Shown piece by piece: positions 12,757 to 46,053 of a stretch of 64,000 nucleotides of DNA. Every line of letters begins with the position of its first letter. The stretch's first letter is position 1. The DNA comes from Desulfamplus sp. (GTDB lineage: Bacteria; Desulfobacterota; Desulfobacteria; Desulfobacterales; Desulfobacteraceae): NCBI GenBank assembly GCA_015232555.1, contig JADFZJ010000010.1, forward strand, positions 6,868 to 70,867, read 5' to 3'. The notes beneath the pieces are model-generated. The model made no database searches. It was not told where the DNA came from and saw only the letters and a program-made list of their open reading frames with translations. Position numbers and translations under genes: made by a program.

Positions 12757-12818
12757 AGTTACCTTATAAAATTAGTCGTTCCATTCTAATTGCCAGCACT
12801 ATCTTATGAAATTTGTCA
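12739..12818. repeat. 40-bp imperfect direct duplication across a gene junction
   Basis: Two copies, at 12739-12778 and 12779-12818, share the 16-mer TTCCATTCTAATTGCC followed by a diverged half containing CTTAT(A/G)AAATT. One copy holds the thioesterase start region and the other the last codons of the flavoprotein gene. The junction therefore arose by, or has been remodelled by, a tandem duplication. Confidence 0.75.
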
Positions 12819-13434
12819 AAATTTTTGTTGTCTGGTCAGGTGGTGGAACTACTTTTTTGCCAGCTTCCATTAACTTCATCAGCCATGCCATATTTTTCCC
12901 AAGGACAGACATTATCTGTTTCCCCTCCCCATCCTGCTCCATCTCTCCTGGATTCATTCCGTAAGCAACATTCCAGTAGTTGGCACTTGGTATCATCATC
13001 TCAGAGTAGAGAAGATAGTGGTTCAACGAGTCCATTGTTGTAACTCCTCCTGAACGCCTCACAGCAGCAACTGCCGCACCAACTTTATGACGTAACATTC
13101 CATTATTGACAGATATCACAAAAAAAGCTCTATCAAGAAAAGATTTCATTCTTCCTGAAATTCCTGAAAAATGGACAGGCGAACCAATAATAATACCGTC
13201 TGCTGCCTTCATCTTCTGAATCCACTCATTAACAGGATCATCTTCAAAAGCACAACGCTCATTCTTTTTCTTTGCACAGGTAAAACATGCAACACATCCG
13301 TGAATCTCCTCTCTCCCCACATGGATTATCTCTGTCTCAATTCCTTCTCTTTCAAGTTCGGCAATTACTGTGTTTAATGATCCTGCTGTGTTTCCATGTT
13401 TTCTTGGGCTTCCGTTAAATGCAACTACCTTCAT
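12799..13434 (-). CDS. Flavodoxin-fold NADPH-dependent FMN reductase / iron-sulfur flavoprotein family
   Basis: 211 residues. The FMN-phosphate loop NGSPRKHGNTA is at residues 9-19. A cysteine cluster GCVACFTCAKKKNERC follows, then the FMN-binding GSPVHFSGISGRMKSFLDR. This matches the multimeric flavodoxin WrbA/iron-sulfur flavoprotein superfamily common in anaerobes. Whether an Fe-S cluster is bound is uncertain. The likely role is cytoplasmic NAD(P)H-driven electron transfer or quinone/nitro reduction; the substrate is unknown. The ATG is preceded by AAGGAG about 8 nt upstream. The thioesterase gene follows after 42 nt and may be co-transcribed. Confidence 0.82.
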   Translation of the reverse strand: MKVVAFNGSPRKHGNTAGSLNTVIAELEREGIETEIIHVGREEIHGCVACFTCAKKKNERCAFEDDPVNEWIQKMKAADGIIIGSPVHFSGISGRMKSFLDRAFFVISVNNGMLRHKVGAAVAAVRRSGGVTTMDSLNHYLLYSEMMIPSANYWNVAYGMNPGEMEQDGEGKQIMSVLGKNMAWLMKLMEAGKKVVPPPDQTTKILTNFIR

Positions 13435-13551
13435 AATTGGTTCTCCTTATATGTTATAATAGTCTATAAATTAGTTTTCCCCCTACTCTTTTCCTCTTAT
13501 CAGGTTAGCACCTTCTCTCTTGGTAAGGAAAGAACTGGGGTAATTTAAAAA

Positions 13552-14289
13552 TCACTTTTTCTTCTGTGCAAGCCTCTCACTTATCTTTGAAGCCTGCTCC
13601 ATTTGAACTTCTGAAAGAATTTTTGATGCTGGTTTAGGAGGCATACGTCCTACTATTTCGGCAGCCAGTTCAACATTCATTTTGTCAAAAATAGCAGCCG
13701 CATTTTTTGTTGGCATTTTGGCATAAACTACAGAAAGGCTCTGCAACTTAGCCTCGTGTTCAGCCTCTTTTTGTCTCTCTTTTTCTGATTTTACCTTCTG
13801 GATAGCAGCCAAATCATCTTGTATCTGTTTTTTCAGTGCCTCAAGTTTTGCAAGATTTTCGTCAATCTCCTCTTTGAACTTTTCAAGCTCTTTTCGTTCA
13901 AGTTTAAGTTTTGCCTCATCTTCATCAAGTTTTTTCTTCCTGTCTTCAAGACCACTTAACACAAACTTTGCAGGATCAGGGCACTCTGGACATTCGGGAC
14001 ATGGAGGAGGCTTTTCACCCTCTTTGCTATCTTTAGCATCCTTACCCTCTTTGCCCTCTTTTGCTTTTGCATCTTTGTCTTTACTTTTATCATCAGGTTT
14101 TGCTTTATCCTCTTTTTTATCTTCATCTTTAGGCTTTTCACCTTCTTTTGCTTTCTTATCATCAGCAGCAAATACCTTTTGAATGGTTGGTAGGTCTGAT
14201 TGAATATTAGGAAAAGTGGGGAACAAGCCAGATAGGATAAAAGTTATAACAAACATAAACAAAAAAATTTTGAAAATTTTACGAAGCAT
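13552..14289 (-). CDS. motE: MotE-like flagellar motor chaperone (FliG/MgtE N-terminal-like)
   Basis: 245 residues. An N-terminal transmembrane/signal segment (about 5-25) precedes a very Lys/Asp/Glu-rich linker (40-90). A Cys-Pro repeat PPCPECPECPDP, a long coiled coil (about 110-170) and a C-terminal helical domain (185-245) follow, the last with VYAKMPTKNAAAIFDKMN and GRMPPKPASKILSEV typical of MotE. MotE stabilises the stator protein MotC in alpha-proteobacteria; in other lineages the role is inferred. It is the last gene of the flgB-fliJ operon and overlaps fliJ by 11 nt. The charged linker has a repetitive KDEDKK/KEGK character. The double CPE motif is unusual. Confidence 0.75.
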   Translation of the reverse strand: MLRKIFKIFLFMFVITFILSGLFPTFPNIQSDLPTIQKVFAADDKKAKEGEKPKDEDKKEDKAKPDDKSKDKDAKAKEGKEGKDAKDSKEGEKPPPCPECPECPDPAKFVLSGLEDRKKKLDEDEAKLKLERKELEKFKEEIDENLAKLEALKKQIQDDLAAIQKVKSEKERQKEAEHEAKLQSLSVVYAKMPTKNAAAIFDKMNVELAAEIVGRMPPKPASKILSEVQMEQASKISERLAQKKK

Positions 14290-14737
14290 TACCTGAAGCC
14301 TCCCTTGCTGTTTTAAGAGATGTCATGTCATCAGCTCTCTTTTGATCTTCAGCCATAAACTCCTCCACATATTCGCTCTTCTTTTTCTCTCTGAGACGCT
14401 CAATCACTTTTCTCTCAACGCTTTTTTTAGTTAATGCCTGCTGTTTGACTGCAAGAACTTTCTGAAGCTGCTCATGCTCTTTGCGTTTAAGGATAATGTC
14501 ATTTTCAAGTGCCTCCAAATAGTCGTTATACTGACGGAAAAGCTGTGCAGGAATACCTTTGCGGGTCTCCTGTTCAACATTATCTGAAGTTATCTGATAA
14601 CCCTGTTCCATCTGCTTAATCTGCTCTTCTGCACTCTTAACATCCATAGACGCCTGAAAATATTCCTGTTTAGCAATATTTTCAAGATGCTCTCTATATT
14701 TGAGAACGGGCTGAAGTCTGAAATTAAATTTTTTCAC
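14279..14737 (-). CDS. fliJ: Flagellar export chaperone FliJ
   Basis: 152 residues, almost entirely predicted coiled coil. It starts MKKFNFRLQPVLKYRE, the classic FliJ N-terminus. FliJ forms the central stalk of the FliI ATPase ring and recycles export chaperones at the flagellar type III export gate. It starts 2 nt after fliI and overlaps motE by 11 nt, so translation is likely coupled. Length is normal for the family. Confidence 0.9.
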   Translation of the reverse strand: MKKFNFRLQPVLKYREHLENIAKQEYFQASMDVKSAEEQIKQMEQGYQITSDNVEQETRKGIPAQLFRQYNDYLEALENDIILKRKEHEQLQKVLAVKQQALTKKSVERKVIERLREKKKSEYVEEFMAEDQKRADDMTSLKTAREASGNAS

Positions 14738-14739
14738 TG

Positions 14740-16101
14740 TTATTTTTTACCTTTTGGAGACGGTGCAGCAACAGTTTTAAGAATATTACCAAGCTCTGCA
14801 ATGCCTGTATTTATATCAATTCTCTTGTTCATATCCTGCCTTAAAAAATTATCAATTGAAGGCATGAGCCTTTTTGCCTGATCAATTTTAGGGTTTGAAC
14901 CATCTACATACGCACCAATGTTTATCATATCTTCCGCATTTCTGTATGTTGCCATGATATCAATTGCCTGCTGTCTTAATTTAACATGGTCAGGCTTTGC
15001 AACATCACGAAATACTCTTGATACACTTGCAAGAACATCAATTGCAGGATAGTGTCCCTTGTTTGCAATTGCCCTTGAAAGAACAATATGACCATCAACA
15101 ATTGAACGGACAGTATCTCCAACTGGATCGTTAAGATCATCACCCTCAACCAGAACTGTATAGATTCCAGTGATTGAGCCGCCCCCTTCAACATACCCTA
15201 CCCGCTCTAAAAGAACAGGAATTTGGACAAAAAATGATGGGGTATAGCCTCTTGATGTTGGAGGCTCACCAGCAGCAAGACCAACATCGCGTGACGACAT
15301 TGCAAAGCGGGTAATAGAATCGACAATCAGCAGAACGTGTTTTCCTTGATCCCTGAAATATTCCGCAATTGTGGTGGCAAGATATGCACCCCTCATTCTT
15401 ACCAATGGCGGAGTATCAGAAGTTGCCGCAACGACAACCGAACTTTTCATGCCTTGAGGTCCAAGTGTGTGGTTTACAAAATCCTTTACCTCCCTGCCAC
15501 GCTCTCCGATAAGACCGATTACCGTAACATCAGCAGTTGTGTGTTTAGTCATCATGCCCATAAGAACACTCTTTCCGACACCAGAACCAGCCATGATCGC
15601 AACACGCTGACCTCGTCCAAGGGTAATCATTACGTTAATGGCAGAAATTCCCACATCAAGCGGCTCGTCAATTGATTTACGCTCCATCGGGTTCATGGGT
15701 TTGCCATAGATTGAATACTTTGCAGTGGGATTAAATGAACCTTTGCCGTCAATAGGATTGCCCATACCGTCAACAACCCTGCCAAGCAGATCATCGCCAA
15801 CATCTGCAAGCGGAAGGTCTGCAAGTGGAATTATTCTGCTGCCGGGTCTGATACCGCGAATATCACCATAAGGCATAAGAAGAACTTTTTCGTCTCTGAA
15901 TCCTATAACCTCTGCCTTGATCTCGCTGCCATGATCATTTTTAATGCTGCAAAGGCTTCCTACTCCAAGCCCAAGACCGTCTCCTTCAGCAATTAGCCCA
16001 ACAACTTTGGTGATTTTACCCTCTGGTCTTACAGTCACACAATTATCAACCGTATCCAAATATTTATCCCAGTTTATATCCATCAATTCGCCTTGATTCA
16101 T
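14740..16101 (-). CDS. fliI: Flagellum-specific ATPase FliI
   Basis: 453 residues. Walker A AGSGVGKS at 171-178, the family sequence GERGREVKDF and Walker B VLLIVDSITRFAM, followed by GEPPTSRGYTPS. Homologous to F1-beta. It hydrolyses ATP to assist substrate delivery to the flagellar type III export apparatus, with FliH as regulator and FliJ as stalk. An alternative Met at residue 7 is possible; the first is chosen because of its context after fliH (51-nt gap). It lies between fliH and fliJ in the usual order. Confidence 0.96.
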   Translation of the reverse strand: MNQGELMDINWDKYLDTVDNCVTVRPEGKITKVVGLIAEGDGLGLGVGSLCSIKNDHGSEIKAEVIGFRDEKVLLMPYGDIRGIRPGSRIIPLADLPLADVGDDLLGRVVDGMGNPIDGKGSFNPTAKYSIYGKPMNPMERKSIDEPLDVGISAINVMITLGRGQRVAIMAGSGVGKSVLMGMMTKHTTADVTVIGLIGERGREVKDFVNHTLGPQGMKSSVVVAATSDTPPLVRMRGAYLATTIAEYFRDQGKHVLLIVDSITRFAMSSRDVGLAAGEPPTSRGYTPSFFVQIPVLLERVGYVEGGGSITGIYTVLVEGDDLNDPVGDTVRSIVDGHIVLSRAIANKGHYPAIDVLASVSRVFRDVAKPDHVKLRQQAIDIMATYRNAEDMINIGAYVDGSNPKIDQAKRLMPSIDNFLRQDMNKRIDINTGIAELGNILKTVAAPSPKGKK

Positions 16102-16152
16102 TGTAAACCATCTCTTATTTTTAAACTATCGACCATATCAGAGATGAAAAAG

Positions 16153-17310
16153 TCATGCTACTCTTGCACCCATGATACTTGTAAATACCTGTTCAAGTCT
16201 TGTCTTTATATCTGTCTCAACATTGCCTTTTGAGGATTCTATTTTACATCCACCCCTTGCGACAGATGGATTTGAGATAACGCTCACACTTTTCAGGCTC
16301 TTTACACCTGCAAAAAAATCATCCTTGATCATTTCAACATAGTCGTAATCATCAGGGCTGATATTAAGGACAATATCTTCAGGTTCAGGCATGGTTGCAA
16401 GGGCGTTCAGTATGGACTCCTTTACAATCCCCTCATCCAATTCGACCTTTGCAAAGACAATTTTTTCTGCAATTTTGCAGATCATTGAGAGAATTTTGGA
16501 CTCATGGGTTCTTATGCTGTTCTGCCATGACTGTTCAGCCTTGTGCAGGATATCTTCAAGAGAGGTTATAATCTCCAACGCCTTTGCATCACCTACAAGT
16601 TTGCCATCCTCTTCACCTTTCTGAAAACCAGCATCATACCCATCTTGTTCGCCTTTCTGAAATCCAGCCTCATAACCCTCTTGCTCCCCTTTTTCATTTC
16701 CAGCCTGAAACCCCTCTTCCATACCGCGGGTTAAACCATCATCGTATCCTTTTGTCTGACCACTTTCAAACCCGTTTTTGTAAGCATCTTCAAATATCCG
16801 CTTTCTTAATCCATCAGGCACTAAGTTGATATTATCATCTATATTTTCATCTTCCGTGAAATCAGCCTCGTTAGGAGAAGTTTCAGATGGTGCTGTTTTA
16901 TCGGTTTCACTTCTATTTGATGATTGTATCTTATCCGAAATCTTCTTATGAGATTCTGCCTGTGGTTGGAGATTTCTTTCTGACATCTTTTGATCAAAAT
17001 AAGCAATACCAGTTGTAAAAGGTTTAAACTCATCATCATCTTCAAGATTGACTTTAGATTTATCAGTTTTAGATTTTACCGAAGGCTCTTGCTCTTGACC
17101 ATAAATACGCACAAACTTGTCAGAACCCTCTTTTTTTTCCTGTTCGTAAAGCACCTTGAAAGATTCAGAGTAAAAACTTGTGCTGTTATTTTTTATATAC
17201 CTCTCACTGCCGCACTGCTCTAATCCAGAGAGATGCCATGTATGAAAATCATTATCGTCATACTTACATTCAGTGGGTGCGACCTGATTTCTATCAGACA
17301 AGGACATCAT
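16153..17310 (-). CDS. fliH: Flagellar assembly protein FliH
   Basis: About 386 residues, long for FliH because of an acidic, Ser/Lys-rich N-terminal half. The middle is a run of GxxxG-type repeats (three 12-residue units such as GEQEGYEAGFQK), characteristic of FliH. The C-terminal domain (VFAKVELDEG, ILNALATMPEPEDIVLNI) matches FliH/YscL. It binds and restrains FliI. The open frame extends to a TTG at 17328. However, AAAGGA at 17315-17320 is best spaced for the ATG pair at 17310/17307, so I place the start there, about 15 nt inside fliG. Confidence 0.9.
   Translation of the reverse strand: MMSLSDRNQVAPTECKYDDNDFHTWHLSGLEQCGSERYIKNNSTSFYSESFKVLYEQEKKEGSDKFVRIYGQEQEPSVKSKTDKSKVNLEDDDEFKPFTTGIAYFDQKMSERNLQPQAESHKKISDKIQSSNRSETDKTAPSETSPNEADFTEDENIDDNINLVPDGLRKRIFEDAYKNGFESGQTKGYDDGLTRGMEEGFQAGNEKGEQEGYEAGFQKGEQDGYDAGFQKGEEDGKLVGDAKALEIITSLEDILHKAEQSWQNSIRTHESKILSMICKIAEKIVFAKVELDEGIVKESILNALATMPEPEDIVLNISPDDYDYVEMIKDDFFAGVKSLKSVSVISNPSVARGGCKIESSKGNVETDIKTRLEQVFTSIMGARVA
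16616..16723 (-). repeat. 36-bp x3 tandem repeat encoding FliH GxxxG helix
   Basis: Units at 16616, 16652 and 16688, each opening CCTTT on the plus strand. The first two are clearly alike and the third is degenerate. They encode 12-residue Gly-spaced helical units. GxxxG repeats are a known FliH feature, so this one may be functional rather than accidental. Confidence 0.8.
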
Positions 17311-18319
17311 CTTTTCCTTTACCGCCAAGTGTTATGGATCCATCTGCTTCCAACTCTTTTGCCGCACGGACAATTGCCTGCTGTGCCTCTTCAACTTCAG
17401 CCAAACGGACAGGTCCCATAGCCTCAAGATCATCTTTGAGCATATCGCCAGCACGCTGTGAGAGGTTGGAGAATATCTTCTTTTTCATCTCTTCGGTTGC
17501 AGTTTTCAAAGCATAGGTGAGCTGCTGACCCTCTACTTTTTTAAGAATCTCTCTCATTGCCTTGTCATCAACACCAACCATATCCTCAAATACAAACATT
17601 CTCTTGCGTATATCATCTGCCATCTCTTGATTGCTCTCTTCAACATGACCCATTATAATCTCTTCGGTTGCTTTATCTACGCCATTTATAATATTGACAA
17701 GCACCTCAACACCGCCAATTTTTCCACCGCCGGGACCCACAGCACCGCTAAGTTGTTTCTTAAGTGCCTCATCAACATCACGGACAATATCTTCAGATAC
17801 TTGACCAAGTTTTGCGATTCTTATTGCAATATCACCCTTTTTATCGTCAGAAACCTCCATAAGAATGGCAGAGGCAATATCAGGGGGCATGTGGGCAAGG
17901 ATCATGGCAATTGTCTGGGGATGCTCAAGCACAATAGAGCCGCTCAAAATATTGAGATTGACATCTTTGCTCCAGATAAATGGCTTTTCACGCCTCTTTT
18001 TTGCAAGATCATCAAGAATTGCAAGTGCCTTGTCATCAGGAAGACTTTTAGTAACCACCTGCCTGAGAAAAGATTCACCTTCAATGAGCATTTTAAGGTC
18101 ACCTTCAAATTTTACTACAAAATCTTTTGATACAGCATCAAGCATCTCTGGCGTTATCTCCTCAATATGTGCCATCTCAAAAGCGATGCTGCTCATTTGA
18201 ACCTCATTCATGGTTCTGAAAATACTTGAAGCGTAATCCTCTCCCATTGCAATCAGAAAGACAGCCGCCTTCTGTGCCCCTGTCATCTTTGCAGGATCAA
18301 TTTTTTCGGCATTGGGCAT
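17294..18319 (-). CDS. fliG: Flagellar motor switch protein FliG
   Basis: 341 residues with three FliG domains. N-terminal: AKMTGAQKAAVFLIAMGE. Middle: EHPQTIAMILAHMPPDIA. C-terminal torque-generating: FVFEDMVGVDDKAMREIL plus charged helix LSQRAGDMLKDDLEAMGP. FliG sits on the FliF MS ring, contacts FliM and receives torque from the stator. Length is normal. It lies 19 nt downstream of fliF and overlaps fliH slightly. Confidence 0.97.
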   Translation of the reverse strand: MPNAEKIDPAKMTGAQKAAVFLIAMGEDYASSIFRTMNEVQMSSIAFEMAHIEEITPEMLDAVSKDFVVKFEGDLKMLIEGESFLRQVVTKSLPDDKALAILDDLAKKRREKPFIWSKDVNLNILSGSIVLEHPQTIAMILAHMPPDIASAILMEVSDDKKGDIAIRIAKLGQVSEDIVRDVDEALKKQLSGAVGPGGGKIGGVEVLVNIINGVDKATEEIIMGHVEESNQEMADDIRKRMFVFEDMVGVDDKAMREILKKVEGQQLTYALKTATEEMKKKIFSNLSQRAGDMLKDDLEAMGPVRLAEVEEAQQAIVRAAKELEADGSITLGGKGKDDVLV

Positions 18320-18338: not shown

Positions 18339-20090
18339 TTATCTATTTTCATTCGGTTTCGCTTCAGCTTCAGTAAGCCATGCCTTTATGATATTGGCAG
18401 ATCGTTCAATGTCAGATTTTGCAAGATACAATGCTTTTTCCGAAATCTTGATACTGTCTAAATATGCCTCTCTATCAGCGTATGGAAGTGATGCAATAAA
18501 CTTGTCTCGATCTTCTGGCGGCATTGCACTGAGAATCTCTTTTTGCTCTTGAGGATCAAGCTCAACAAATGACGGCTCTGACGCTTCTTCCTCCTCTTTT
18601 ACAATCTGTTCAAGCAACTCTTTTGGGTCAGGCTGAGGGAGGGCTGCCTGTTCTACACTTGTCTGAATATCTTTTGCAGTCTTTATAATTGGTCTTATGA
18701 CAAAAAGGAACAGTAAAATAATAAGCAGCACATTGGCAATGGTTCTTCCGTACTCTTTTTGAACAAAACGCCACCCCTTTACATCTGCATCGTCTTTCCC
18801 CATCTCATCAATGGACGCAAATGGAAAACTCTCTACAGATACCTGATCTTCTCTCTCTTCATTGTATCCCACAGCTTTGCCCACAACATCTGAAAACTGC
18901 TTCATCTCATCTTCTGAGCGTGGAACATAGTTTTTAACTCGATTGCCGCTCTCATCAGTTTTATACTCATATTTTCCATCAATAACTGCTGCAACAGAGA
19001 CCCTTTTTATAACAGCCATGGGCTTTATAGTCTCGCTTACCCTTCTGCTTATCTCATAGTTGACTGTATCATCACTTTTTTTAACCTCTTCCACGTTCTT
19101 TTCTGCTTTGGGGTCTTCGTTTGTAATCGGATTGACGCTTGATGGAGTTCCTTTATCTTCGCTCCCTTTACGAGCAGCTTCAGTAAGCAGTTTTTTGCTT
19201 CTGATAAATGTATTATTTCTCTCTAAAGGATCGTATATCTCTTCGTTTGTACTGCTTGTGGTAAAATCCATTTCAGATACAACACGAACAATCGCCTTAT
19301 CCTTACCAACTATCCTCTCAAGCATGGTCTGAATACGGTCAGCAAGTTCTGTTTCGTAACGCTCTTTGTATTTATACTGGGTCTCTGCAATCTCTTGAAC
19401 TTTCTGCTGCTCGTTCTGCTCTTTTTTCTGTGCCATTGTTTTTGCTTCAAACAGGATTCTTCCAGTTGTATCTACAATGGTTACAAGCTCGGGAGTCAAA
19501 TCCTCAATAGCACTTGAGACAAGATGAGCAATTGCAGAGACTTTTTCATCATCCAAATCAGATTTAAGTTCAAGAAGAATTGATGCAGATGGTTTTTTGG
19601 TTTCTTCGACAAACACAGAATCTTTGGGAAGAACGATCATAACCTTGGCATCTTTAACCTCTTCAAAGGCACGGATAGTTCTTGCAAGTTCTCCTTGAAT
19701 GGCACGAAGTTTATTTACCTTTTGAACAAATTCAGTTGTTCCGAAATCTGTCTTGTCAAAAATTTCATAACCAACGCCAGATGCCTTAGGAATCCCCTCT
19801 TTTGCCAAATCAAGACGAATTTCATAAACCTGAGGCTCAGGCACAAGGATAGTCTTGCCGCCGTCTCTGAGTTTATATGGTGTCTTGTTCTCTTTGAGTT
19901 TTGAAACAATCGCGGATGCATCCTCTTCTGATAACTCAGTATAAGCAGGCTGAAACTCTGTCTTGTTTGCCCATACAAACATGGTTATAAAAGCTGAGAT
20001 TGTAACTATAATCAAAGCTCCTAATGCAATTTTTTTGTAGAGAGACATCTCTCTGTATATTTTAACAACCTGTTCAAAAAAAGGATTCAT
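18339..20090 (-). CDS. fliF: Flagellar MS-ring protein FliF
   Basis: 583 residues. Transmembrane segment 1 is at about 20-40, followed by the YscJ/FliF ring-building domain (YTELSEEDASAIVSKLKE, LRDGGKTILVP, ALEGELARTI-like region) and the FliF C domain. A disordered charged region precedes transmembrane segment 2 (about 465-485), and a cytoplasmic tail binds FliG. It forms the MS ring in the inner membrane and nucleates basal body assembly. Length agrees with the family. Confidence 0.96.
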   Translation of the reverse strand: MNPFFEQVVKIYREMSLYKKIALGALIIVTISAFITMFVWANKTEFQPAYTELSEEDASAIVSKLKENKTPYKLRDGGKTILVPEPQVYEIRLDLAKEGIPKASGVGYEIFDKTDFGTTEFVQKVNKLRAIQGELARTIRAFEEVKDAKVMIVLPKDSVFVEETKKPSASILLELKSDLDDEKVSAIAHLVSSAIEDLTPELVTIVDTTGRILFEAKTMAQKKEQNEQQKVQEIAETQYKYKERYETELADRIQTMLERIVGKDKAIVRVVSEMDFTTSSTNEEIYDPLERNNTFIRSKKLLTEAARKGSEDKGTPSSVNPITNEDPKAEKNVEEVKKSDDTVNYEISRRVSETIKPMAVIKRVSVAAVIDGKYEYKTDESGNRVKNYVPRSEDEMKQFSDVVGKAVGYNEEREDQVSVESFPFASIDEMGKDDADVKGWRFVQKEYGRTIANVLLIILLFLFVIRPIIKTAKDIQTSVEQAALPQPDPKELLEQIVKEEEEASEPSFVELDPQEQKEILSAMPPEDRDKFIASLPYADREAYLDSIKISEKALYLAKSDIERSANIIKAWLTEAEAKPNENR

Positions 20091-20161: not shown

Positions 20162-20223
20162 TTCAGATTATACTAACTCTCTTACTACATATTTCAGATT
20201 ATATTAACTCTTTTATAGCTGCA
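20162..20223. repeat. 31-bp imperfect tandem duplication at the fliE 3' end
   Basis: TTCAGATTATACTAACTCT at 20162 recurs as TTCAGATTATATTAACTCT at 20193. The right-hand copy runs into the fliE stop region and the left-hand copy is intergenic, between fliE and fliF. Confidence 0.75.
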
Positions 20224-20581
20224 TATTTATAATCTCTTTATATGCTTCCATTGCCTTTGATTTTACCTGCATAAGAAGCCTCAAAGATGTATCAGCCTTA
20301 CCAATGGCAAGCATACCTTCGTGAATTCCGACTTCATCTCTCATAACTCCCTGAGTTGCCTCATCTGCTAAATTTTGCTTAGAGTTGACATCTTTTACAG
20401 CAGTATTGAGACGTTCGGCAAATGATGGGTCGCGTCTCGCCACTCTAAGTTGCAACGGTTCAATTTTTAGAGATATTTTATCTATCTTATTAGTTTTATC
20501 ACTATTTATATTATTATTTATACTGTTATTTGTATAATTACCTATGTTATTAATATTTGATATGAGAGTCATGTTGCTCAC
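20213..20581 (-). CDS. fliE: Flagellar hook-basal body protein FliE
   Basis: 122 residues. The conserved C-terminal half has PSFAERLNTAVKDVNSKQN, ATQGVMRDEVGIHEGML, KADTSLRLLMQVKSKAMEAYKEI and the final MQL typical of FliE. It joins the MS ring to the rod. The N-terminal 30 residues are Asn-rich low complexity (NNIGNYTNNSINNNINSDK) from an AT-rich slipped sequence. The gene lies between flgC and fliF. Confidence 0.93.
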   Translation of the reverse strand: MSNMTLISNINNIGNYTNNSINNNINSDKTNKIDKISLKIEPLQLRVARRDPSFAERLNTAVKDVNSKQNLADEATQGVMRDEVGIHEGMLAIGKADTSLRLLMQVKSKAMEAYKEIINMQL

Positions 20582-20682: not shown

Positions 20683-21216
20683 TTACTGTTTTCCTATCTC
20701 AAGAGCTTTCATTATCATGCTTTTAGTATTGGAGAGAGCTGTTACACTTGCCTCATAAGCTCTTTTTGCCACAACCATATCTGCAACCTCTGTCAGGTGG
20801 TCGACATTTGGCATTTTGACATATCCAGTATTTGGGTCAGCGTCAGGATGGGCAGGGTTATAGACCAGCCTGAAATCTTCCTGAGATTTTACTATCTCAG
20901 CCACCTCAACTCCAGTTCCCCTACTCGGTTCAAATGGCTTAAATAGCTCTATTGGTTTGATATCAATTCGAGAGATTCCGTGTTTTGTGAAAAACTCATC
21001 AGCCTTGAGCTTTTGATCAAGAACAGTCTCAAACTCATCAATATCCTTGCCCTTGAATATAACCATCTGACGGCGGTATGGTCCCCCCTCAGCAGTTCGT
21101 GTAGTTTCAACATTGGCAAGGTTCTGAGCTATCAGGTTCATCTTTGTTCGATGTGCTGCAAGACCAGTTGCACTGACTCTTGATGCGTTTAAAAGATCCA
21201 TAGCCATAGTTATCAC
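20683..21216 (-). CDS. flgC: Flagellar basal-body rod protein FlgC
   Basis: 177 residues. The N-terminal rod signature is LIAQNLANVETTRT after a coiled-coil start, and the C-terminal signature is VDHLTEVADMVVAKRAYEAS, both shared by axial rod proteins. It forms the proximal rod with FlgB and FlgF. Slightly longer than the family mean (about 135-150) through the middle region. Start could be M1, M4 or M6. It lies 44 nt downstream of flgB. Confidence 0.95.
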   Translation of the reverse strand: MITMAMDLLNASRVSATGLAAHRTKMNLIAQNLANVETTRTAEGGPYRRQMVIFKGKDIDEFETVLDQKLKADEFFTKHGISRIDIKPIELFKPFEPSRGTGVEVAEIVKSQEDFRLVYNPAHPDADPNTGYVKMPNVDHLTEVADMVVAKRAYEASVTALSNTKSMIMKALEIGKQ

Positions 21217-21260: not shown

Positions 21261-21680
21261 TCATCTTCCACCTTCTTGAATGGAGTGCTTAAGTAGAGTC
21301 ATCTTTCTTAAAAGCATCTCGGTTGTGGTGCGGTATTTGATGTTATTCTCGGCAATATTAGTCATCTCAGTATCAATATCAACTGAATCCAAATGGTTAA
21401 GATCAACGGATTCGCTGATGTACTCTTTAATAGAAAACGGCTCAGGAGGATTTGTGCCTGTGAAATGTTTAGGATTTGTAATGCTCATAACAGGTGCTGG
21501 CTCTACTTTATCTTCCATTGCTTTTTCTAAGGTGCTCTTGAAATCAAGATCAACTGGTTTATATCCTATGGTATCCATATTGGATATATTACCAGATATC
21601 AGGTTGTGCCGTCTTGCAGAGATATCAAGAGCGTTTGAGAGCATTGAAAATGTTTTGTCGTATATTCTTGAATTGTTCAT
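21261..21680 (-). CDS. flgB: Flagellar basal-body rod protein FlgB
   Basis: 139 residues. LDISARRHNLISGNISNMDT is the rod N-terminal motif, with a C-terminal helix containing VDIDTEMTNIAENNIKY. First gene of the flagellar operon, preceded by a predicted sigma-54 promoter about 125 nt upstream. Proximal rod component. Confidence 0.94.
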   Translation of the reverse strand: MNNSRIYDKTFSMLSNALDISARRHNLISGNISNMDTIGYKPVDLDFKSTLEKAMEDKVEPAPVMSITNPKHFTGTNPPEPFSIKEYISESVDLNHLDSVDIDTEMTNIAENNIKYRTTTEMLLRKMTLLKHSIQEGGR

Positions 21681-21979
21681 TATTCTCTCCTTTACAATCG
21701 CATAGAGTTTCTCATAAACCTATTAAATTCTATACTTTGACGTTGATTTACAGTCTATTGTCAAACTCATATTTGATATTTGGGATTTTTACTTAAAAAA
21801 TTGAAAGGCAACTTGTATGCCATAAAACAGGATATAATGAGGATTTTCTAAAATAGATTATATTTTTATCTGAAATTTGGCATCCTTCATTTGATGCCCA
21901 AAGTATTTTACACTTTTTGTTTGTTAAAATTTATTTATGATTTTTAAAGGCAGGAGACGGGTAAGAGGCAGTTTAAACC
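21681..21979. other. Upstream region of the flagellar operon
   Basis: 299 nt without a gene. It holds the predicted sigma-54 promoter (21807-21822, minus strand) and, 55-80 nt further upstream of the promoter, an imperfect palindrome at 21877-21902 (TTTGGCATC and GATGCCCAAA arms). The palindrome is a plausible enhancer site for the neighbouring sigma-54 activators. The rest is AT-rich with nothing recognised. Confidence 0.5.
21807..21822 (-). promoter_or_regulatory. Predicted sigma-54 promoter of flgB operon
   Basis: Minus strand reads TGGCATACAAGTTGCC: -24 GG and -12 GC elements with exact sigma-54 spacing (consensus TGGCAC-N5-TTGC). It drives flgB to motE if functional. Two sigma-54 activators are encoded just upstream. 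Confidence 0.7.
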
Positions 21980-23476
21980 TCACCTCTTTTCTTTATATTC
22001 ATTTAACTTGTTTCTAAGTGTTCTGACGCTGATTCCAAGCAACTTTGCTGCATGTGTGCGGTTGCCTTCAGTTCGATCAAGCGTATTATAAATAACTCGC
22101 TCTTCAATATCTCTGAGCGAGCCTGACTCAATATTTATATTAAAATCTCTTAAAGGGTGTTCATTTCTCATTGCGTCTGTCATTGCATTGGCACTATACG
22201 CAATCTCATCTAAAGACTTGCTATAAGAGTTATCCTTAATAGGGTCTGAAGTGTCCTCATCAATATCTACATCATCAATATCTACATCAGCAAAATCCTC
22301 CATCAGCAGATCCTGCGGTTCAATAAATTCACCTTCAGCAAGTAGAACAGCACGATGAATCATGTTCTGAAGTTCTCTCACATTACCTGTAAATTTTTGT
22401 GAGCTTAAAATCTGATATGCCTCTGGTGTCATTCCTTTGACATCTCTTGCGTCAATAATACTGTAGTGTTTTATAAAGTGGTCGCAAAGCAGCCTTAAAT
22501 CTCCTTGACGCTGCCTAAGTGGTGGAATGGTGAGAGGAATGGTATTTAATCGATGGTAGAGGTCTTCTCTGAACTCTCCGTTGCGGATAGACTCTTTCAT
22601 ATCTCTGTTTGTGGAAGCTATAATTCTGACATTAACAGGAACAGGTTCTCTGCCTCCAACCCTGTCAACGGTTTTCTCCTGAAGCACCCTCAGCAGCTTT
22701 GCCTGAAGATGATACTGCATCTCTGTAATCTCATCAAGAAAGAGAGTGCCATTATTTGCAAGCTCAAATTTTCCCTCTTTTCTTGTGATTGCACCTGTAA
22801 ATGCACCTTTTTCATGTCCAAACAGCTCACTTTCAAGAAGGTTTTCAGGCAGGGCTGCACAGTTGAGTGCGACAAACGGCATTGAACTTCTTTTGCTGTT
22901 ATGGTGGATAAAGCGGGCAAAAAGCTCTTTACCTGTCCCACTCTCTCCCTGAATAAGGACAGATGCAGTGCTGTCTGCAACTCTCTTTGCCATATTGAGC
23001 ACACGCTGCATTCCCTTGTCAGAGGTTATAATCTCAATTAGAGGTGCTGTATGGCTATTTTTAATTCCCTCATTCTGTTGTCCAGCTCTTTTCTTTACAG
23101 ACAATTTTTTAAGATAAAGCTCGATCTGCTCAAAAGTGACAGGCTTAATAATAAAATCAAAAGCACCATGCTTCATTAGTGTTACAGCCTCCTCAACAAG
23201 CGGATGCTCTGATATGAAAATCACTTCTGTCAGCGGTTTTACATCTTTAACTTGTTTAAGAAACTTAAGAGCATTAAAAGCTGGAGCATCAATATCTGCA
23301 ATAACAAGGAGAATATTTTTATCCGTGTCATCACTGTTTTTAATATTGATAATTGACTCTGCACTTGAGCCATCTTGAACAGCATCAACTTTATAGCCCA
23401 AATCTTCAAAAAAACGGGTTATCTCTATCCGTTCTCTGAAATTATGCTCTATAATCAAAACTCTCTGTGCAGACAT
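21980..23476 (-). CDS. Sigma-54-dependent response regulator (FlrC/FleR-like, REC-AAA-Fis)
   Basis: About 498 residues from the ATG at 23476; the open frame runs 21 codons further, but those lack family similarity. The N-terminal receiver starts MSAQRVLIIEHNFRERIEIT. The usual acidic pair is replaced by Glu-His, although a candidate phospho-Asp lies in VIADIDAPAF. The AAA+ domain has GESGTGKE, the sigma-54-contacting GAFTGA, DEITEMQ and GNVRELQNM. The C-terminal Fis-type HTH is RTHAAKLLGISVRTLRNKL. Its position directly upstream of flgB, with a sigma-54 promoter there, suggests it activates flagellar genes. The modified acidic pocket may make it phosphorylation-independent (inference). Confidence 0.88.
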   Translation of the reverse strand: MSAQRVLIIEHNFRERIEITRFFEDLGYKVDAVQDGSSAESIINIKNSDDTDKNILLVIADIDAPAFNALKFLKQVKDVKPLTEVIFISEHPLVEEAVTLMKHGAFDFIIKPVTFEQIELYLKKLSVKKRAGQQNEGIKNSHTAPLIEIITSDKGMQRVLNMAKRVADSTASVLIQGESGTGKELFARFIHHNSKRSSMPFVALNCAALPENLLESELFGHEKGAFTGAITRKEGKFELANNGTLFLDEITEMQYHLQAKLLRVLQEKTVDRVGGREPVPVNVRIIASTNRDMKESIRNGEFREDLYHRLNTIPLTIPPLRQRQGDLRLLCDHFIKHYSIIDARDVKGMTPEAYQILSSQKFTGNVRELQNMIHRAVLLAEGEFIEPQDLLMEDFADVDIDDVDIDEDTSDPIKDNSYSKSLDEIAYSANAMTDAMRNEHPLRDFNINIESGSLRDIEERVIYNTLDRTEGNRTHAAKLLGISVRTLRNKLNEYKEKR

Positions 23477-23561
23477 ACAATCAAAAACCTCTATGTGCCA
23501 TATAATCAAAATCTGCTTCTGTGCAGTTATATAAAACAAAAACCCTATCTATCTGAAATTT

Positions 23562-26258
23562 TTATGAACTTGACACCTTTTCAGCTAATGCTAATGTGGT
23601 CAGACGCTCCTTTGCAAGGCGTGACCAGATAGAGTCATCTGTACCTGCCACCTTCTCAAAAGCCTCTTTTGCCTTTTCAAGAGCATTGGCTTTCTGGTAG
23701 GCATCACCAAGCATAAAGACAATATCAACAGAGCTGTACCCGCCTGTATCAGATATCTTTAGTGCCATACTGAACGCCTCTACTGCTTTTACAAATAATC
23801 TCTGCTCTAAATATGATTTGCCAAGAGATTTGTAACTATTTGAAATTAAATCATAATTTTTGCCTGTTGCAGAGACATATTCTGTTACAGCCTTTTCAAA
23901 CAGCTCTGAAACTTTCTTCCAATCATTGAGTTTTTGATAAACTTCAGCTTCACGGCTGAGGATATTTCCCTTTTCAACTCTATCTTTGCTTGATTCATAG
24001 GCATTTTTGAAATTTTTTGCAGCCTTGGTCAACTCTCCCTTATCAAAGAGAATACTGCCTGTACGGACATACGCCTGAACTCTATCAGGCAGTGTTTCTG
24101 AACGATCTGTATATGCCTTGAAGATATTCAAGGCATCATCTCTTCTGCCAGATTCATCCATTGCAACCCCAAGTCCAAAGAGCAGTTCAGGCGGTCTCTC
24201 ATTTTGTTTATACTGCTTGTAAGACTCCATCAACTGGTTAAATGCCTGTTCATAAAGATGAGCATTCAGATATGCAAGTCCTGTACTTAAAAAAATCTCG
24301 CGGCTCTCCAATCTGTCAAGAAGAACTTTCGCCCCTTCATAGGTTTTTAATACATCAGGATATTCCCCTGATTTAAGTTTCTCTTTAAATAGAGATTCAT
24401 AGGCACTCTGCATAAGTTTAACCGCATCGTATCGTAATCCAGTCGGATGAGTTGCAAGAAGATTTTCAATCTCCTGTATGCACTTTTCATATTCGCCGTT
24501 TTTATTGTAAAGCTCGGCAAGACGCATCATTGCAACCTTAGACAGCCTGTGATCTGCAAAATCTAACTTAACCATATTGTAAATTTTTTCAATTTTAGCT
24601 CTATCTTTTAGACAGAGTGCAAGACCCATTGCACTACCAAGAAAACCCTCTGTACCAGGAAATTTATCCATAACAAACTGATAAACCGCTTTTGCTCTGT
24701 CTAAATTTTTTTCATAAAAATAGGTATCTCCGACTTTTGTCATAACCATATCTTTATCAGTGATGTCAGCGAACACATTATAGACTCTGGTTAGGTTATC
24801 TCTTGCTGGAACACTGTTTTGCAGTGCATATTCAGCTTCACCAAGGCTTCTTAGAACTTCTGGTGAATCATATACAATTTCAGGATTGCTCTCCACAAGA
24901 GAGGTCAGGATATCTCTGCACTCAATATAATGGAGCTTTTTAAACAGAGCCTTGCCAAGTCCGACCCCTGCATCAACCGCATAAACACTCTTTGAATGGT
25001 TGGTAAATACCTCTCTATAATTTTCAATTGCCCTCTCATTATACTCCTTATCTTTATCACCTTTTGCGTCGTAAATTTTTGCAAGGTAATAGAGTACCTC
25101 TGGTAAACCTGAATATGATTTATAATTATCCAAAACAATAGTAAAATGACCTTCAGAAGCTGCACCGTTATCCAATTTGTCATAGATAAGACCTAAAGAC
25201 GAGTGGGCAAATGGAGCAAGGGGTGATGACGGCCAATTGACAATAAGGTTATGAAAAAGAGATTCAGCTTTCAATAACTGCTCAAAACTTTTCTTATTTA
25301 ATGGGTTTGATGCACTATTTTGAGTAATTTGATAAAAAGTGTATGCTTTGAGGAAATCAGCCTTTTCAATGCACTCTGTCCCGCCTTTTTCAAGATAGCT
25401 GTCCAAAATATCAAAAGCATTCTGCCAATCAGACTGTTTAATAAGCATGTAGGCTTTTTTAAGCTCATTATCATTGCATGACATTAAATCTGCTGCTGCA
25501 ACAATATCAGTTATATCACCTGCTGTATCGGATAAACGGTTTTTCCTTGTTCCATAAGTCTTTTTGTCTCCACTGCTGTTCACATAGTTACTTTTCGGTT
25601 TGACAAGTTCTTTTTTTGATACTACTGTGGCAGATTCGCTCTTCACAACTGCGGGTTCAACTGCTTTTGAATCTGACATGGAAGTCAAAGTTACTGATTT
25701 TGAACTGACTTCTGGCTCTTTTACTTTTTTTGTAGGCTGGCTTGACTTATCGGCTCTCTTTGTTTGGGGTGAAGATTTAGACTTAGAGGATGTACGTTTC
25801 TCTGAATGTAGCCGTTCTGGTTTAGAATTACCTGATTTTATTTTTTCATTATCCTCAGCTCCATTAAATCTGACTGTCAGATTTAAACCGCTATTATCCC
25901 AATTGTGTGATACTGATTTAAAAGCTCTTTTGCCTGTAACCACAATTGCAAGGACATTTCCGGGCAGCACATCTAACTCTATCTTACGAATTATATCATT
26001 TGATTTATAAAAGTGAGTCATCCCTTCTGCAGGACGGATATTTTTAAGGGCAATTAATATTTCCCTGTCATCCACCATAATAACTTTTCCTGTTATCTTT
26101 TCTGTTACCTGAAGCCTTATCTCTGGTCGTTCATTTTCTGAAAAGATACCTTTAAGTTCCGCATTTTTTGCAGCAGCATTTCTAACAGGAGTGATTACGC
26201 AGAACAGCATAGAGAATATTATTAACATTTTTTTGGAGTGAACCATCATCTCTGCCAT
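23562..26258 (-). CDS. Large exported TPR-repeat protein, predicted flagellum-associated
   Basis: 898 residues. Signal-peptide-like N-terminus (MLIIFSMLFCVITPVRNAAA). A small beta-rich domain (about 35-135) resembles AMIN-like modules. A disordered Ser/Lys-rich linker (140-255) leads to about 15 TPR-like helical hairpins to the C-terminus. I cannot assign a family name. AAAGG is 7 nt before the ATG. A predicted sigma-54 promoter lies 60-75 nt upstream, and the gene sits between two sigma-54 flagellar-type activators. Motility, such as periplasmic assembly or motor-associated scaffolding, is therefore the best inference. Similar big TPR proteins occur near flagellar regulators in Desulfobacterota, but the role is not established to my knowledge. 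Confidence 0.8.
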   Translation of the reverse strand: MAEMMVHSKKMLIIFSMLFCVITPVRNAAAKNAELKGIFSENERPEIRLQVTEKITGKVIMVDDREILIALKNIRPAEGMTHFYKSNDIIRKIELDVLPGNVLAIVVTGKRAFKSVSHNWDNSGLNLTVRFNGAEDNEKIKSGNSKPERLHSEKRTSSKSKSSPQTKRADKSSQPTKKVKEPEVSSKSVTLTSMSDSKAVEPAVVKSESATVVSKKELVKPKSNYVNSSGDKKTYGTRKNRLSDTAGDITDIVAAADLMSCNDNELKKAYMLIKQSDWQNAFDILDSYLEKGGTECIEKADFLKAYTFYQITQNSASNPLNKKSFEQLLKAESLFHNLIVNWPSSPLAPFAHSSLGLIYDKLDNGAASEGHFTIVLDNYKSYSGLPEVLYYLAKIYDAKGDKDKEYNERAIENYREVFTNHSKSVYAVDAGVGLGKALFKKLHYIECRDILTSLVESNPEIVYDSPEVLRSLGEAEYALQNSVPARDNLTRVYNVFADITDKDMVMTKVGDTYFYEKNLDRAKAVYQFVMDKFPGTEGFLGSAMGLALCLKDRAKIEKIYNMVKLDFADHRLSKVAMMRLAELYNKNGEYEKCIQEIENLLATHPTGLRYDAVKLMQSAYESLFKEKLKSGEYPDVLKTYEGAKVLLDRLESREIFLSTGLAYLNAHLYEQAFNQLMESYKQYKQNERPPELLFGLGVAMDESGRRDDALNIFKAYTDRSETLPDRVQAYVRTGSILFDKGELTKAAKNFKNAYESSKDRVEKGNILSREAEVYQKLNDWKKVSELFEKAVTEYVSATGKNYDLISNSYKSLGKSYLEQRLFVKAVEAFSMALKISDTGGYSSVDIVFMLGDAYQKANALEKAKEAFEKVAGTDDSIWSRLAKERLTTLALAEKVSSS

Positions 26259-26316
26259 TTTACACCTTTACAATCAAATTCAAATTTACAATACCAAATA
26301 ACGTATCTTGAGAAAA

Positions 26317-26332
26317 TGCAATATATATGCCT
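26317..26332 (-). promoter_or_regulatory. Predicted sigma-54 promoter of TPR gene
   Basis: Minus strand reads AGGCATATATATTGCA: GG at -24 and TTGCA at -12 with exact spacing. Predicted leader about 45 nt. Confidence 0.6.
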
Positions 26333-26454: not shown

Positions 26455-27498
26455 TTACAGAAATGGAAAATCCTGCTCCTGCTCAATATTCATTTTTTTA
26501 ATTTTTTCTACAAGGGTTGTTCGATTCATTTTTAATAAATCTGCTGCCCTTGCCTTTACCCAGTGTGTCTGTTCAAGGGCATAAAGAATCAGACTCCTCT
26601 GATACTCATCCACAGCTTCATTAAACCCAATACCCTTCTGAAACACGCCCGAGATAGACATTGTATCTATTGCCTGAGTCTGGCTTGCAATAATATAGTC
26701 AGGCAGGTCAGACGGCATAACTAACTCGCTCTCAACCATTACAGAGAGTCTCTCAACAAGATTTTCAAGCTCCCTGATATTTCCGGGCCAACTGTAGCTG
26801 TTCAAAACAGATATTGCCTCATCAGAAAAAGTTTTCTTAGTGTAGCAATTATATCCATTTGTCCGCTGTATGATTTTTTCCTGAAAATGGTCAATAAGAA
26901 CTGGTAAATCATCAATACGATCTCTGAGCGGTGGAACTTTAAGAGGAATAACATTTAATCTGTAGAAAAGGTCTTCACGAAATGTCCCTTGTGCAATAGA
27001 TGCAACAAGGTCTTTATTAGTTGCAGAGATAATTCTGACATCAATATTTGTTGTTGTAATCCCCCCTACCCTCTCAATCTTGCGCTCTTGTAGAGCTCTT
27101 AGTAGTTTGACCTGCAAATCAGGACTCATATCACCAATCTCATCAAGAAAAACTGTACCTTTATCTGCCAGTTCAAATCTCCCGATTCTTGACCTATGAG
27201 CACCAGTAAAAGCACCTTTCTCGTGTCCGAACAGCTCACTTTCAAGCAATTCCCCGGGAATGGCACCACAATTTATGATAACCATCGGCTCGCTGCTTCT
27301 GTAGCTATTATTATGTATAGCTCTGGCGACCAGCTCTTTTCCTGTTCCGCTTTCACCTGTAATCAAAACAGATGCGTCAGAAACAGCAACTTTTCTGATG
27401 GTATTGATTACCTGATTTACAGCATCGCTTACTCCGGCAATCTCTTTACAGCAGAAGCTCTTTGTAGATAATTTTGAGTCCATAGTTTTGGGTAACAT
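26455..27498 (-). CDS. Sigma-54 interaction domain activator without receiver (FlrA/FleQ-like)
   Basis: 347 residues: a short 20-residue leader, an AAA+ domain ([14 protein letters not shown] in [32 protein letters not shown]) and a C-terminal Fis-like HTH ([18 protein letters not shown]). There is no N-terminal receiver, so it resembles PspF or a FleQ/FlrA stripped of its N domain. The context (14 nt from cheY, upstream of the TPR gene and flagellar operon) suggests a flagellar master regulator. Regulation by an antiactivator such as FleN is possible, but none is encoded here. Confidence 0.87.
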
Positions 27499-33222: not shown

Positions 33223-35136
33223 TTATTTGTGCATAGGTGCTATTAAAGAATTTGGCGGGAGAATCTTTTTAATAATTAACTGTAAACTTTCCCTCCCCTG
33301 CCACGAGTTTAGACTAAGTGTGTAAACAACATCAACAAGATCACCTGAATCTAAAGGAAGAGGGGCACCTGGTTTATCAAGAGCATAAAAAAAGGCAGAT
33401 TTAACTCCATCAAGCATCATAGAAAGGTGAACAGGATTTTTTCCCATAACCTTTACGTCAGTTGCTCTCATCTGATCATGGAATAGCGGTGAAGGAAAAC
33501 CCATGCCAAAAGGGTGTAAAGCCTCAATATGGTAATAGGTCTCAAGGTTTATCTGACTATTGAACTCCCCGTTTGTGTTATTGTTTTTTAAAGAGCCGTC
33601 AGTATGAAGATATGGTGTAATATCTTGACCATCAAGCTGTTCAACAACAATTGTGGGCAACTCTTTTTTAAGCAGATCAATATTATCTTTACGAAGTTTG
33701 AATCCTGCAGCAGCCCTGTGTCCGCCATAAGCTATCAATATCCCTGGAAACCTCTCATCAAATGTCTGAAGTGCATCTCTTAGATGCAAAAACTGTCCTG
33801 CTCTGCCTGAGCCTGCAGCAAAACCATTTTCAATATCTGCAATCATAATAGCAGGGATTCCAAAATTTTCTGTAAGTTTACCAGCTACAATCCCTTGAAT
33901 ACCTGGGTGGTTATTTTCACTGTAACAGATTAAAATAGAAGGCATTTTACTTGTAAAAAAGTGTGACGAATTTTCAACATACTGATTTAAACCCATGGAA
34001 TCTTTGGCTGCATTAAACATCTCCTTTTCAATCTTTTGCCTGTCACTGTTAAAGATACCAAGCTGCTGATATGATTGGTTAATTATATCTGGATCATCTT
34101 TAATAAGAAAGTCAAGAGCAGTTGTTGCCTCAGACGTCATGCGAGAACTTGCGTTAATACGGGGAGCTAACTGAAAAGCTAAAAACCAGTTGTCTGCATC
34201 TTTACCATTCAATGCAACCTGCCAACATGGTCTAATTCTTCGGTTCATAAACTCAAGACCTTTTTTAACAAAATATCTGTTAATGACTGAAGTGAGTGGA
34301 ACCAGATCAGCAATAGTGCCAAGGGCAACATGATCAAGCAGTTGATGTATTTTTTGTTTCTGCTCAAGAGTGCAGGTGCTGCAATTGCTAACTCCACGCC
34401 TTTTGGAATCTTCCGTATTTGTTGAGTTTGCCATCTCTTTTGAAAGTGCGGTCATAAGTAACCATGCAACACCACAGCCTGCAATATCTGAATCATAGGG
34501 GCAGTTCTCCCTTTTAGGATTGACCACTGCAAATGCTGCTTCTGGAATTCCCTCTTTTGGGATAATGTGATGGTCTGTTACAATGACATCAATGCCAGCA
34601 TCTGCAAGTCTTTTGATTCTTGCTCCATCAGAAGCTCCTGCATCAGCAGTGATTACAAGAGTTGAAGGGACAAAATTTTGTTCTTTATTATGGCATAAGT
34701 TTTGCTTATGATATTCTTCAAGATTTTCCCTGATGCCCTGCCTGAAAGAGAGGATTTTATCTGCAACAGGATCGGTTAAACCGTAACCGTCAAGGATTCT
34801 GTGCCCTGTGAGTCTGATAATCCTTGAGTCAGGCACGCCAAACACATCATGCAAAGTTCCATAGAGCACTGCCATTGATGTGCAGCCATCAACATCGTAG
34901 TCTGTAAAAATAAGTATTGTCTCGTTATTGTTGATAGCTTGAGCGATTCTCTTTGCGGCTTTTGTGCAGTCAGCCATGATGTCCGCTGGTTTAATCGCAT
35001 CAAGTGTGAACTGAAATATGTTTTTATCAAAGGTATCTGTTCTGCCTGCAATGATTCTTGCAACAATTTCAGGATATCCATGTTCGAGACAGGTTGTATA
35101 TACTTGCTGGTTTATGGTTCTCTCTTTTATACGCAT
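33223..35136 (-). CDS. recJ: Single-stranded-DNA-specific exonuclease RecJ
   Basis: 637 residues. DHH phosphoesterase motifs: FTDYDVDGCTSMA (motif I), VITADAGASDGARI, VTDHH (motif III), VNPKRENCPYDSDIAGCGVAW-like motif IV. The DHHA1 domain has YGGHRAAAGF. A C-terminal OB-like region is present. It degrades 5' ends of single strands in recombination and mismatch repair. Hydrophilic inserts relative to typical RecJ occur near NSTNTEDSKRRGVSNCS and LKNNNTNGEFNSQINL. It is divergent from yqaA and in the same window as recBD. Confidence 0.93.
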   Translation of the reverse strand: MRIKERTINQQVYTTCLEHGYPEIVARIIAGRTDTFDKNIFQFTLDAIKPADIMADCTKAAKRIAQAINNNETILIFTDYDVDGCTSMAVLYGTLHDVFGVPDSRIIRLTGHRILDGYGLTDPVADKILSFRQGIRENLEEYHKQNLCHNKEQNFVPSTLVITADAGASDGARIKRLADAGIDVIVTDHHIIPKEGIPEAAFAVVNPKRENCPYDSDIAGCGVAWLLMTALSKEMANSTNTEDSKRRGVSNCSTCTLEQKQKIHQLLDHVALGTIADLVPLTSVINRYFVKKGLEFMNRRIRPCWQVALNGKDADNWFLAFQLAPRINASSRMTSEATTALDFLIKDDPDIINQSYQQLGIFNSDRQKIEKEMFNAAKDSMGLNQYVENSSHFFTSKMPSILICYSENNHPGIQGIVAGKLTENFGIPAIMIADIENGFAAGSGRAGQFLHLRDALQTFDERFPGILIAYGGHRAAAGFKLRKDNIDLLKKELPTIVVEQLDGQDITPYLHTDGSLKNNNTNGEFNSQINLETYYHIEALHPFGMGFPSPLFHDQMRATDVKVMGKNPVHLSMMLDGVKSAFFYALDKPGAPLPLDSGDLVDVVYTLSLNSWQGRESLQLIIKKILPPNSLIAPMHK

Positions 35137-39771: not shown

Positions 39772-39865
39772 ATAAAAGAAATATCCTTACAGAAGCATAA
39801 ATAGCAACATAATATAATGAAAATAGTATGTTATGAGCTTCAGTATTATAAATAGATTCAAAAAG

Positions 39866-46021: not shown

Positions 46022-46053
46022 AATTTGTATGTTCTTTTATTCAATAAGTCATG

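Follow-up and report, generated by a model that had tools for sequence, protein, structure and literature searches.

The 64,000-nucleotide stretch of Desulfamplus sp. DNA analysed here (hereafter the window; GenBank assembly GCA_015232555.1, contig JADFZJ010000010.1, positions 6,868 to 70,867) carries, within a block of flagellar genes, a minus-strand open reading frame (ORF; 23562-26258) encoding a protein of 898 amino acids. We believe that this protein is probably a flagellar motor spoke of the PflA/MotK type, seated on the FlgY E-ring. On this reading it belongs to a kind of protein that is already known, the PflA and MotK spokes, and not to an unknown one. A preliminary description of the same DNA had proposed an exported protein in the flagellar block, composed of a beta domain and about 15 tetratricopeptide repeat (TPR) units, as a good candidate for an uncharacterised periplasmic motility factor, for example a disk or scaffold around the motor. 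The hydrophobic N-terminus, the Pfam TPR matches and the flagellar setting agree with that description, as does the beta domain, but our model contains about 17 helical pairs; a motor scaffold remains the best reading, although its kind is known and 'spoke' fits it better than 'disk'.

The protein begins with a Sec-type signal peptide recognised by inspection (residues 1-30, 26169-26258), followed by a beta domain (residues 33-132, 25863-26162), a disordered linker rich in lysine, proline and serine (25515-25862) and a TPR superhelix (residues 249-897, 23568-25514), all encoded on the minus strand. Its N-terminus is hydrophobic, is led by lysine and has AAA-K at its end, and the N-termini in an alignment of 30 rows are likewise hydrophobic by inspection; we infer that the protein is exported to the periplasm by Sec. 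Pfam returned 14 families, nearly all of them TPR models (TPR_2, 1.8e-22). An AlphaFold2 model made from the 30-row alignment has a mean predicted local distance difference test (pLDDT) score of 83, with nine beta strands at residues 33-132 and helices across 249-897, while residues 135-230 fall below 50 and are taken as disordered. In the alignment the linker varies from 43 to 173 residues, measured from the AMIN domain to G247, and its end is marked by a conserved GDI(S/T)D motif; the most conserved parts include TPR stretch 563-630 and the C-terminus. Cys261 and Cys296, at the start of the TPR array (25371-25478), are invariant in 30/30 rows and likely form a disulfide, which would fit a periplasmic protein. 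The nearest named relatives are Desulfamplus assemblies, namely isolate nJC1bin9 (74%) and D. magnetovallimortis (55% in the best segment). Within its own genome the gene matched only itself; a second TPR gene in the window (57341-59275, minus strand, 644 amino acids), which lies beside a sigma-70-type factor gene (59320-60438), shares 22-29% with the orthologues and was set aside as a repeat match.

Comparison of folds indicates that the N-terminal beta domain has the AMIN fold. Folded alone, the domain reached a pLDDT of 87, and a structure search with VIA placed AmiC first (4bin, Z 12.5, 3.2 Å over 104 aligned residues), then PilQ (3jc8_Qa, Z 11.9, 3.4 Å over 103), the Synechocystis protein 5h3k (Z 11.7) and Neisseria PilQ (Z 10.2 and 9.7), before the scores fell to small heat-shock proteins at Z 7.6 and lower. 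Foldseek gave a weaker result for the same domain, with AmiC best (E 0.0024) and heat-shock proteins next. For the full model, Foldseek reported 534 matches at E <= 0.001, and the first to run the full length was chain K of 9hmf, the Campylobacter jejuni periplasmic motor scaffold (E 3.3e-16; the next match, 4.7e-14), a chain that is probably PflA, to judge from its length of 773. As modelled, the succession of AMIN domain, linker and TPR array matches the published architecture of both PflA and MotK.

PflA of C. jejuni and Helicobacter pylori is described as an exported protein with an AMIN-like beta sandwich, a flexible loop and 16-17 TPRs, whose spokes run from the FlgY E-ring to the PflB rim and help to place the stators (PMC11870540, PMC12222027). 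The protein from Desulfamplus shares this layout and a FlgY-type partner in the genome, but has a longer linker, a sigma-54 promoter and a place in the flgB block between two activators. MotK of Cereibacter sphaeroides Fla2 and CC_2058 of Caulobacter similarly combine an AMIN-like N-terminus and TPRs with a MotE partner (PMC10954123, PMC13023049); MotK works with MotE and is required for rotation, and the best matches reported for its N-terminus, AmiC and then PilQ (PMC10954123), are the two kinds that head our own list. However, motK adjoins motE or motA and comes from a different phylum, and the likeness that we describe is one of architecture. By description only, the protein also resembles WP_011165745.1 of Bdellovibrio bacteriovorus, a PflA-like exported long TPR protein of a flagellar operon proposed to form an inner ring, although the passage describing it mentions no AMIN domain; the same study, working by homology, reports no PflA in delta-proteobacteria and points only to this Bdellovibrio TPR protein (PMC5758724). 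Again by description only, it can be likened to FlcA and FlcB of Borrelia, which are taken as PflA and PflB homologues on a ring of FlbB, a FlgY-type protein (PMC11870540, PMC13023049), but that collar comprises several proteins. According to the FlgY study, about 52% of flagellated species encode TPR proteins close to flagellar genes, which it counts as potential homologues of PflA, with a single such protein in most of the genomes counted (PMC11870540). Its main text contains no word beginning with 'Desulfo-'; its species tables may already count such Desulfobacterota genes. Our literature search, judged by title or start of abstract, returned no work on this protein in Desulfobacterota.

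The distribution of the gene follows that of the flagellum. A strong match (E < 1e-60) occurs in 34 of 58 relatives, counting the window's own genome; 32 of these 34 are FliF-positive and 33 FlgY-positive. In a class sample of 192 genomes (the rows listed are all of the same order), a profile match at E <= 1e-15 defined 65 carriers, 18 of which were in the profile by construction. FliF was found in 103/192 genomes; all 65 carriers are FliF-positive and none of the 89 FliF-negative genomes carries the gene (Fisher 2e-24, not corrected for relatedness), so that within this sample the family is restricted to flagellated genomes. A control search of the same 192 genomes with a single protein as query gave 62 genomes at E <= 1e-10, again all FliF-positive; it recovered 60 of the 65 carriers, added G152 and G186 and missed G067, G124, G130, G132 and G138.

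The gene also follows FlgY. A profile of 18 FlgY rows matched 72 of the 192 genomes, among them all 65 spoke carriers and none of the FliF-negative genomes, and 31 of the 38 FliF-positive genomes without a spoke profile match lack FlgY as well. Since every carrier has FlgY and most flagellated non-carriers do not, we conclude that the spoke-type protein and FlgY co-occur among the flagellated genomes of this sample. In five of the seven non-carriers with FlgY (G046, G086, G097, G139 and G152), the position before flgB, or a place next to it, is occupied by a gene for a diverged TPR protein (loci L061, L068, L069, L075 and L077, of which L075 and L077 are truncated by the contig). In G186 the contig with the flagellar genes stops too early, but a different contig has a weak match (E 7.6e-11). 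The seventh, G033, has a decaying flagellar operon (L059, 1-4769), with a FliF of 380 amino acids, fliI in two pieces and a stop codon in flgY; upstream of the short fliF neither flgB, flgC, fliE nor a spoke gene was found, and this decay is a natural loss of the flagellar block.

Gene order is conserved in most loci. Where a single contig holds both matches (63 carriers), the gene always precedes fliF on its 5' side and shares its strand, at a distance of 0.9-7.4 kb. It sits between two sigma-54 activators in 41 of 51 named loci, and flgB-flgC-fliE-fliF then follow in 38 of the 51, several of those without the full order being cut by contig ends. In the window these activators are ACT1 (26455-27498, minus strand), which has no receiver domain according to Pfam and NCBIfam, and ACT2 (21980-23539, minus strand), which has one and for which FlbD, AtoC and other NCBIfam models score best, none of them above its cut-off.

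Upstream of the gene, the site AGGCATATATATTGCA (26317-26332, minus strand) shows the exact GG-N10-GC spacing, ends 58 nucleotides before the ATG and fits the sigma-54 core consensus. By score alone it does not exceed what chance would give, being one of 18 sites scoring at least 9 on the two strands of the 64 kb, and we accept it as a promoter because it is conserved across loci. Such a site precedes the gene in 28 of 30 loci, the window's own counted; it is missing from L005, which lies at a contig end, and from L029, whose first start codon lies far upstream and whose contig is that of L128, where the site was found. Among named loci with at least 150 nucleotides upstream (L113, too short, was left out, and L129 to L131 were unused), 46/49 have the site, all but L082, L101 and L122, compared with 1205 of 20,000 random windows of 390 nucleotides (6%); the 30-locus and 49-locus sets share genomes. 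The same kind of site precedes flgB, in the window as TGGCATACAAGTTGCC (21807-21822, minus strand) and in 39/43 named loci. A single sigma-54 family match was found in the genome, and a survey of sigma-54 regulons, which mentions PflA once, places motility genes under sigma-54 in Desulfobacteria (PMC12316311); the relevant passage of a paper on Geobacter RpoN names no TPR gene. The promoter and the position between two activators, both claimed in the preliminary description, are upheld, and neither of the findings that it had named as contrary evidence was encountered: orthologues in non-flagellated relatives did not turn up among the 192 genomes of the class sample, and against missing co-regulation with flagellar genes stands the conserved sigma-54 promoter, of the same type as that before flgB.

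In the wider phylum, 46 of 297 genomes matched at E <= 1e-20, 43 of which are labelled as belonging to the same phylum only. We looked at the neighbourhood of the gene in 20 of these 43: one or both activators of this type lie near it in 20/20 and both in 13/20, and flagellar structural genes occur within the stretch in 14/20 (contig ends truncate L204 and L214). The activator count is weak evidence alone because NtrC-family activators are common. The N-terminal head seems to vary. Among 20 distant or diverged N-termini, the AMIN model PF11741 scored over its cut-off in L205 and L208 and below it in L206, L207, L210, L220 and L221, and was not matched in the remaining 13; in L209, L215, L219 and L222 the TPRs begin soon after the N-terminus. 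Within the class, the diverged TPR protein of L061 (8302-10911, minus strand), likewise encoded at the flagellar position, carries SPOR instead of an AMIN domain (46 bits, cut-off 21). SPOR, like AMIN, binds peptidoglycan. It is conceivable, though we offer it tentatively and with some doubt, that in Desulfobacterota FlgY and the spoke are obligate partners, always acquired or lost together and independently of the rest of the flagellum, that the wall-anchoring head (AMIN in this gene's family, SPOR in one relative, none detected in others) can be swapped on a conserved TPR arm, and that together they make a minimal wall-binding stator scaffold without the rim and cage of Campylobacter, for whose PflB, PflC, PflD and cage no search was made.

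Based on these observations, we propose the following model. The spoke would be exported to the periplasm by Sec, and its long TPR superhelix would be placed radially above the inner membrane. Its inner end would rest on the FlgY E-ring surrounding the MS-ring, while the N-terminal AMIN domain, by way of the flexible linker, would reach the peptidoglycan and the zone of the stators farther out. In this position the spoke could keep MotAB/FliL stator units at a fixed radius. The two adjacent activators would act on the sigma-54 promoters of the spoke gene and of the rod and MS-ring genes, which would be expressed together. What the analysis itself shows is the predicted fold and architecture, the restriction to flagellated genomes within the sample, the conserved gene order and promoter, and the co-occurrence with FlgY; the radial position, the contacts with FlgY, stators and wall, the choice of acting activator and the role in motility are parts of the model that we infer.

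Several observations weigh against this interpretation. The gene adjoins the rod and MS-ring genes and not motAB. Pfam AMIN was not matched in the 898-residue protein among the 25 of 27 families listed (E <= 0.5), and the solved N-domain of PflA, 9leq_A, reached only Z 5.8 against the N-domain, the level of the small heat-shock proteins. The match to 9hmf_K has a template modelling (TM) score of 0.30 and a root-mean-square deviation of 45.6, and eukaryotic TPR proteins follow close behind it; VIA on the full model returned generic TPR superhelices in its 50 rows, the Campylobacter scaffold chain not being among them, and in a profile search of PDB sequences the 60 rows listed, of 131, are generic TPR proteins, with PflA not among them. 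Two of the 34 strong carriers, G014 (70% complete) and G019 (81% complete), have no FliF match, and the absences reported above are not exhaustive, as four candidates per genome were scored in the profile and single-protein searches. As regards gene order, L079, L101 and L128 have no ACT1 beside the gene, L112 has neither ACT2 nor flgB, and L096 has neither an activator nor a flagellar gene of the set within 7 kb downstream; in this last locus (7001-16616) the upstream neighbours are kept and the usual downstream flagellar genes are gone, possibly through rearrangement. In C. jejuni, inner scaffold parts are described as assembling without RpoN (PMC11870540, PMC13023049), in contrast to the sigma-54 control seen here. 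Finally, 24 of the 31 FlgY-negative flagellated genomes, judged over at least 3 kb upstream of flgB, have no exported TPR gene there, and therefore flagella of this class can do without the spoke. ORFs were judged from 350 or 400 residues upwards (in two listings), shorter ones only if matching, and G166, G167, G168, G171, G192, G194 and G200 stand outside the count. In 11 of the 24 loci (L060, L063, L071-L074, L158, L161, L164, L168 and L170) there are further TPR-rich ORFs, several kb upstream of flgB, that match the profile weakly, some of them cut by the end of the stretch; no export signal was seen by eye in their N-terminal letters. As a side observation, in G159, which has no spoke or FlgY match, a cyclase-domain protein of 884 residues (PF00211; L078, 7168-9819, minus strand) is encoded upstream of the flagellar activator.

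The position beside flgB-flgC-fliE-fliF under the same type of sigma-54 promoter, and away from motAB, would also suit a factor for rod and MS-ring assembly, that is, an AMIN-anchored periplasmic adaptor that places or recruits wall-opening enzymes for the rod, and AMIN is described as a peptidoglycan-binding domain (PMC10954123). We consider such a role unlikely, given that no catalytic domain was seen in the Pfam lists for the protein, that AMIN is unmatched in distant relatives such as L209, L215, L219 and L222, and that the tie to FlgY and the PflA architecture favour the E-ring and a spoke.

It is much less probable still that the protein belongs with the general TPR proteins of the envelope, such as YbgF/CpoB or BamD, and lies in the flagellar block by chance. 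Like YbgF/CpoB of the Tol-Pal system it is a periplasmic TPR protein by prediction, and the curated NCBIfam model for YbgF scores over its cut-off (105.7 against 90.1), with weak YfiO/BamD matches besides; however, that score derives from five stretches of a short repeat model. YbgF/CpoB has an N-terminal coiled-coil trimerisation domain and a gene in a Tol-Pal setting. No such domain is among the 25 of 27 Pfam families listed for the Desulfamplus protein, and we reject the YbgF/CpoB identity on account of the AMIN-fold N-terminus, the confinement to FliF-positive genomes (0/89 without FliF) and the activator and flagellar neighbours. Given the YbgF score, automatic annotation may mislabel this flagellar protein as a Tol-Pal protein. 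Matches to MamA, PorW, PrsT and other NCBIfam models scored far under their cut-offs and were discarded.

Least credible of all is an assembly checkpoint, a periplasmic sensor reporting motor assembly to the two flanking activators, to which the position between both in most named loci and the presence of both in 13/20 phylum loci would lend themselves, since Pfam found no signalling domain, the protein appears to be exported and has no evident membrane segment past the signal peptide, and the diverged carriers L068 and L069 have the gene immediately in front of flgB.

A spoke of the PflA/MotK type on the FlgY E-ring thus remains the interpretation that we prefer. One alignable family spans 65 of the 103 FliF-positive genomes of the class sample and tracks flagella and FlgY genome by genome, and the flagellated relatives without spoke and FlgY provide natural controls; therefore, the idea that the spoke and E-ring act as a unit can be tested by comparing the motors of these relatives. 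Its interest lies in its pairing with FlgY, in a wall-binding head that seems to be exchangeable and in a sigma-54 control that sets it apart from C. jejuni.

The flagellar block of the window runs from genes for an HD-domain response regulator, a PilZ protein, CheX and a CheY-like protein through ACT1, the spoke gene and ACT2 to flgB, flgC, fliE, fliF, fliG, fliH, fliI, fliJ and a FlgY-type gene. The rod genes flgB (21261-21680) and flgC (20683-21216) and the gene fliG (17294-18319), all on the minus strand like those that follow, were labelled from reading the sequence and from their conserved position. fliE (20213-20581) matches PF02049, fliF for the MS-ring (18339-20090) has a PF08345 match inside it, and fliJ (14279-14737) matches PF02050; the best models for fliH (16153-17328) are FliH models that score below their cut-offs, and fliI (14740-16101) is over the cut-off of a FliI/YscN subfamily model. 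The last gene (13552-14289) encodes an E-ring protein of the FlgY/MotE/FlbB type, with a PF03448 match of 27.0 bits (cut-off 25.9) and a weak match to the FlbB model (E 0.0034, 17.2 bits, cut-off 110). Its product has, by inspection, a signal peptide, and continues through a charged and then a helical segment to an MgtE_N domain at the C-terminus, which is the layout reported for FlgY (PMC13023049, PMC11870540). The genome also has three MotB-plug and two FliL matches.

Elsewhere in the window, a cluster for cellulose synthesis (38026-49782, minus strand) encodes a BCSC_C domain, GH8, BcsB, a glycosyltransferase/cellulose synthase and a large PKD-domain protein. A further sigma-54-like site, TGGCATAAGTTTTGCT (score 10, 34691-34706, plus strand), lies within a RecJ-like gene on the minus strand (33223-35136).

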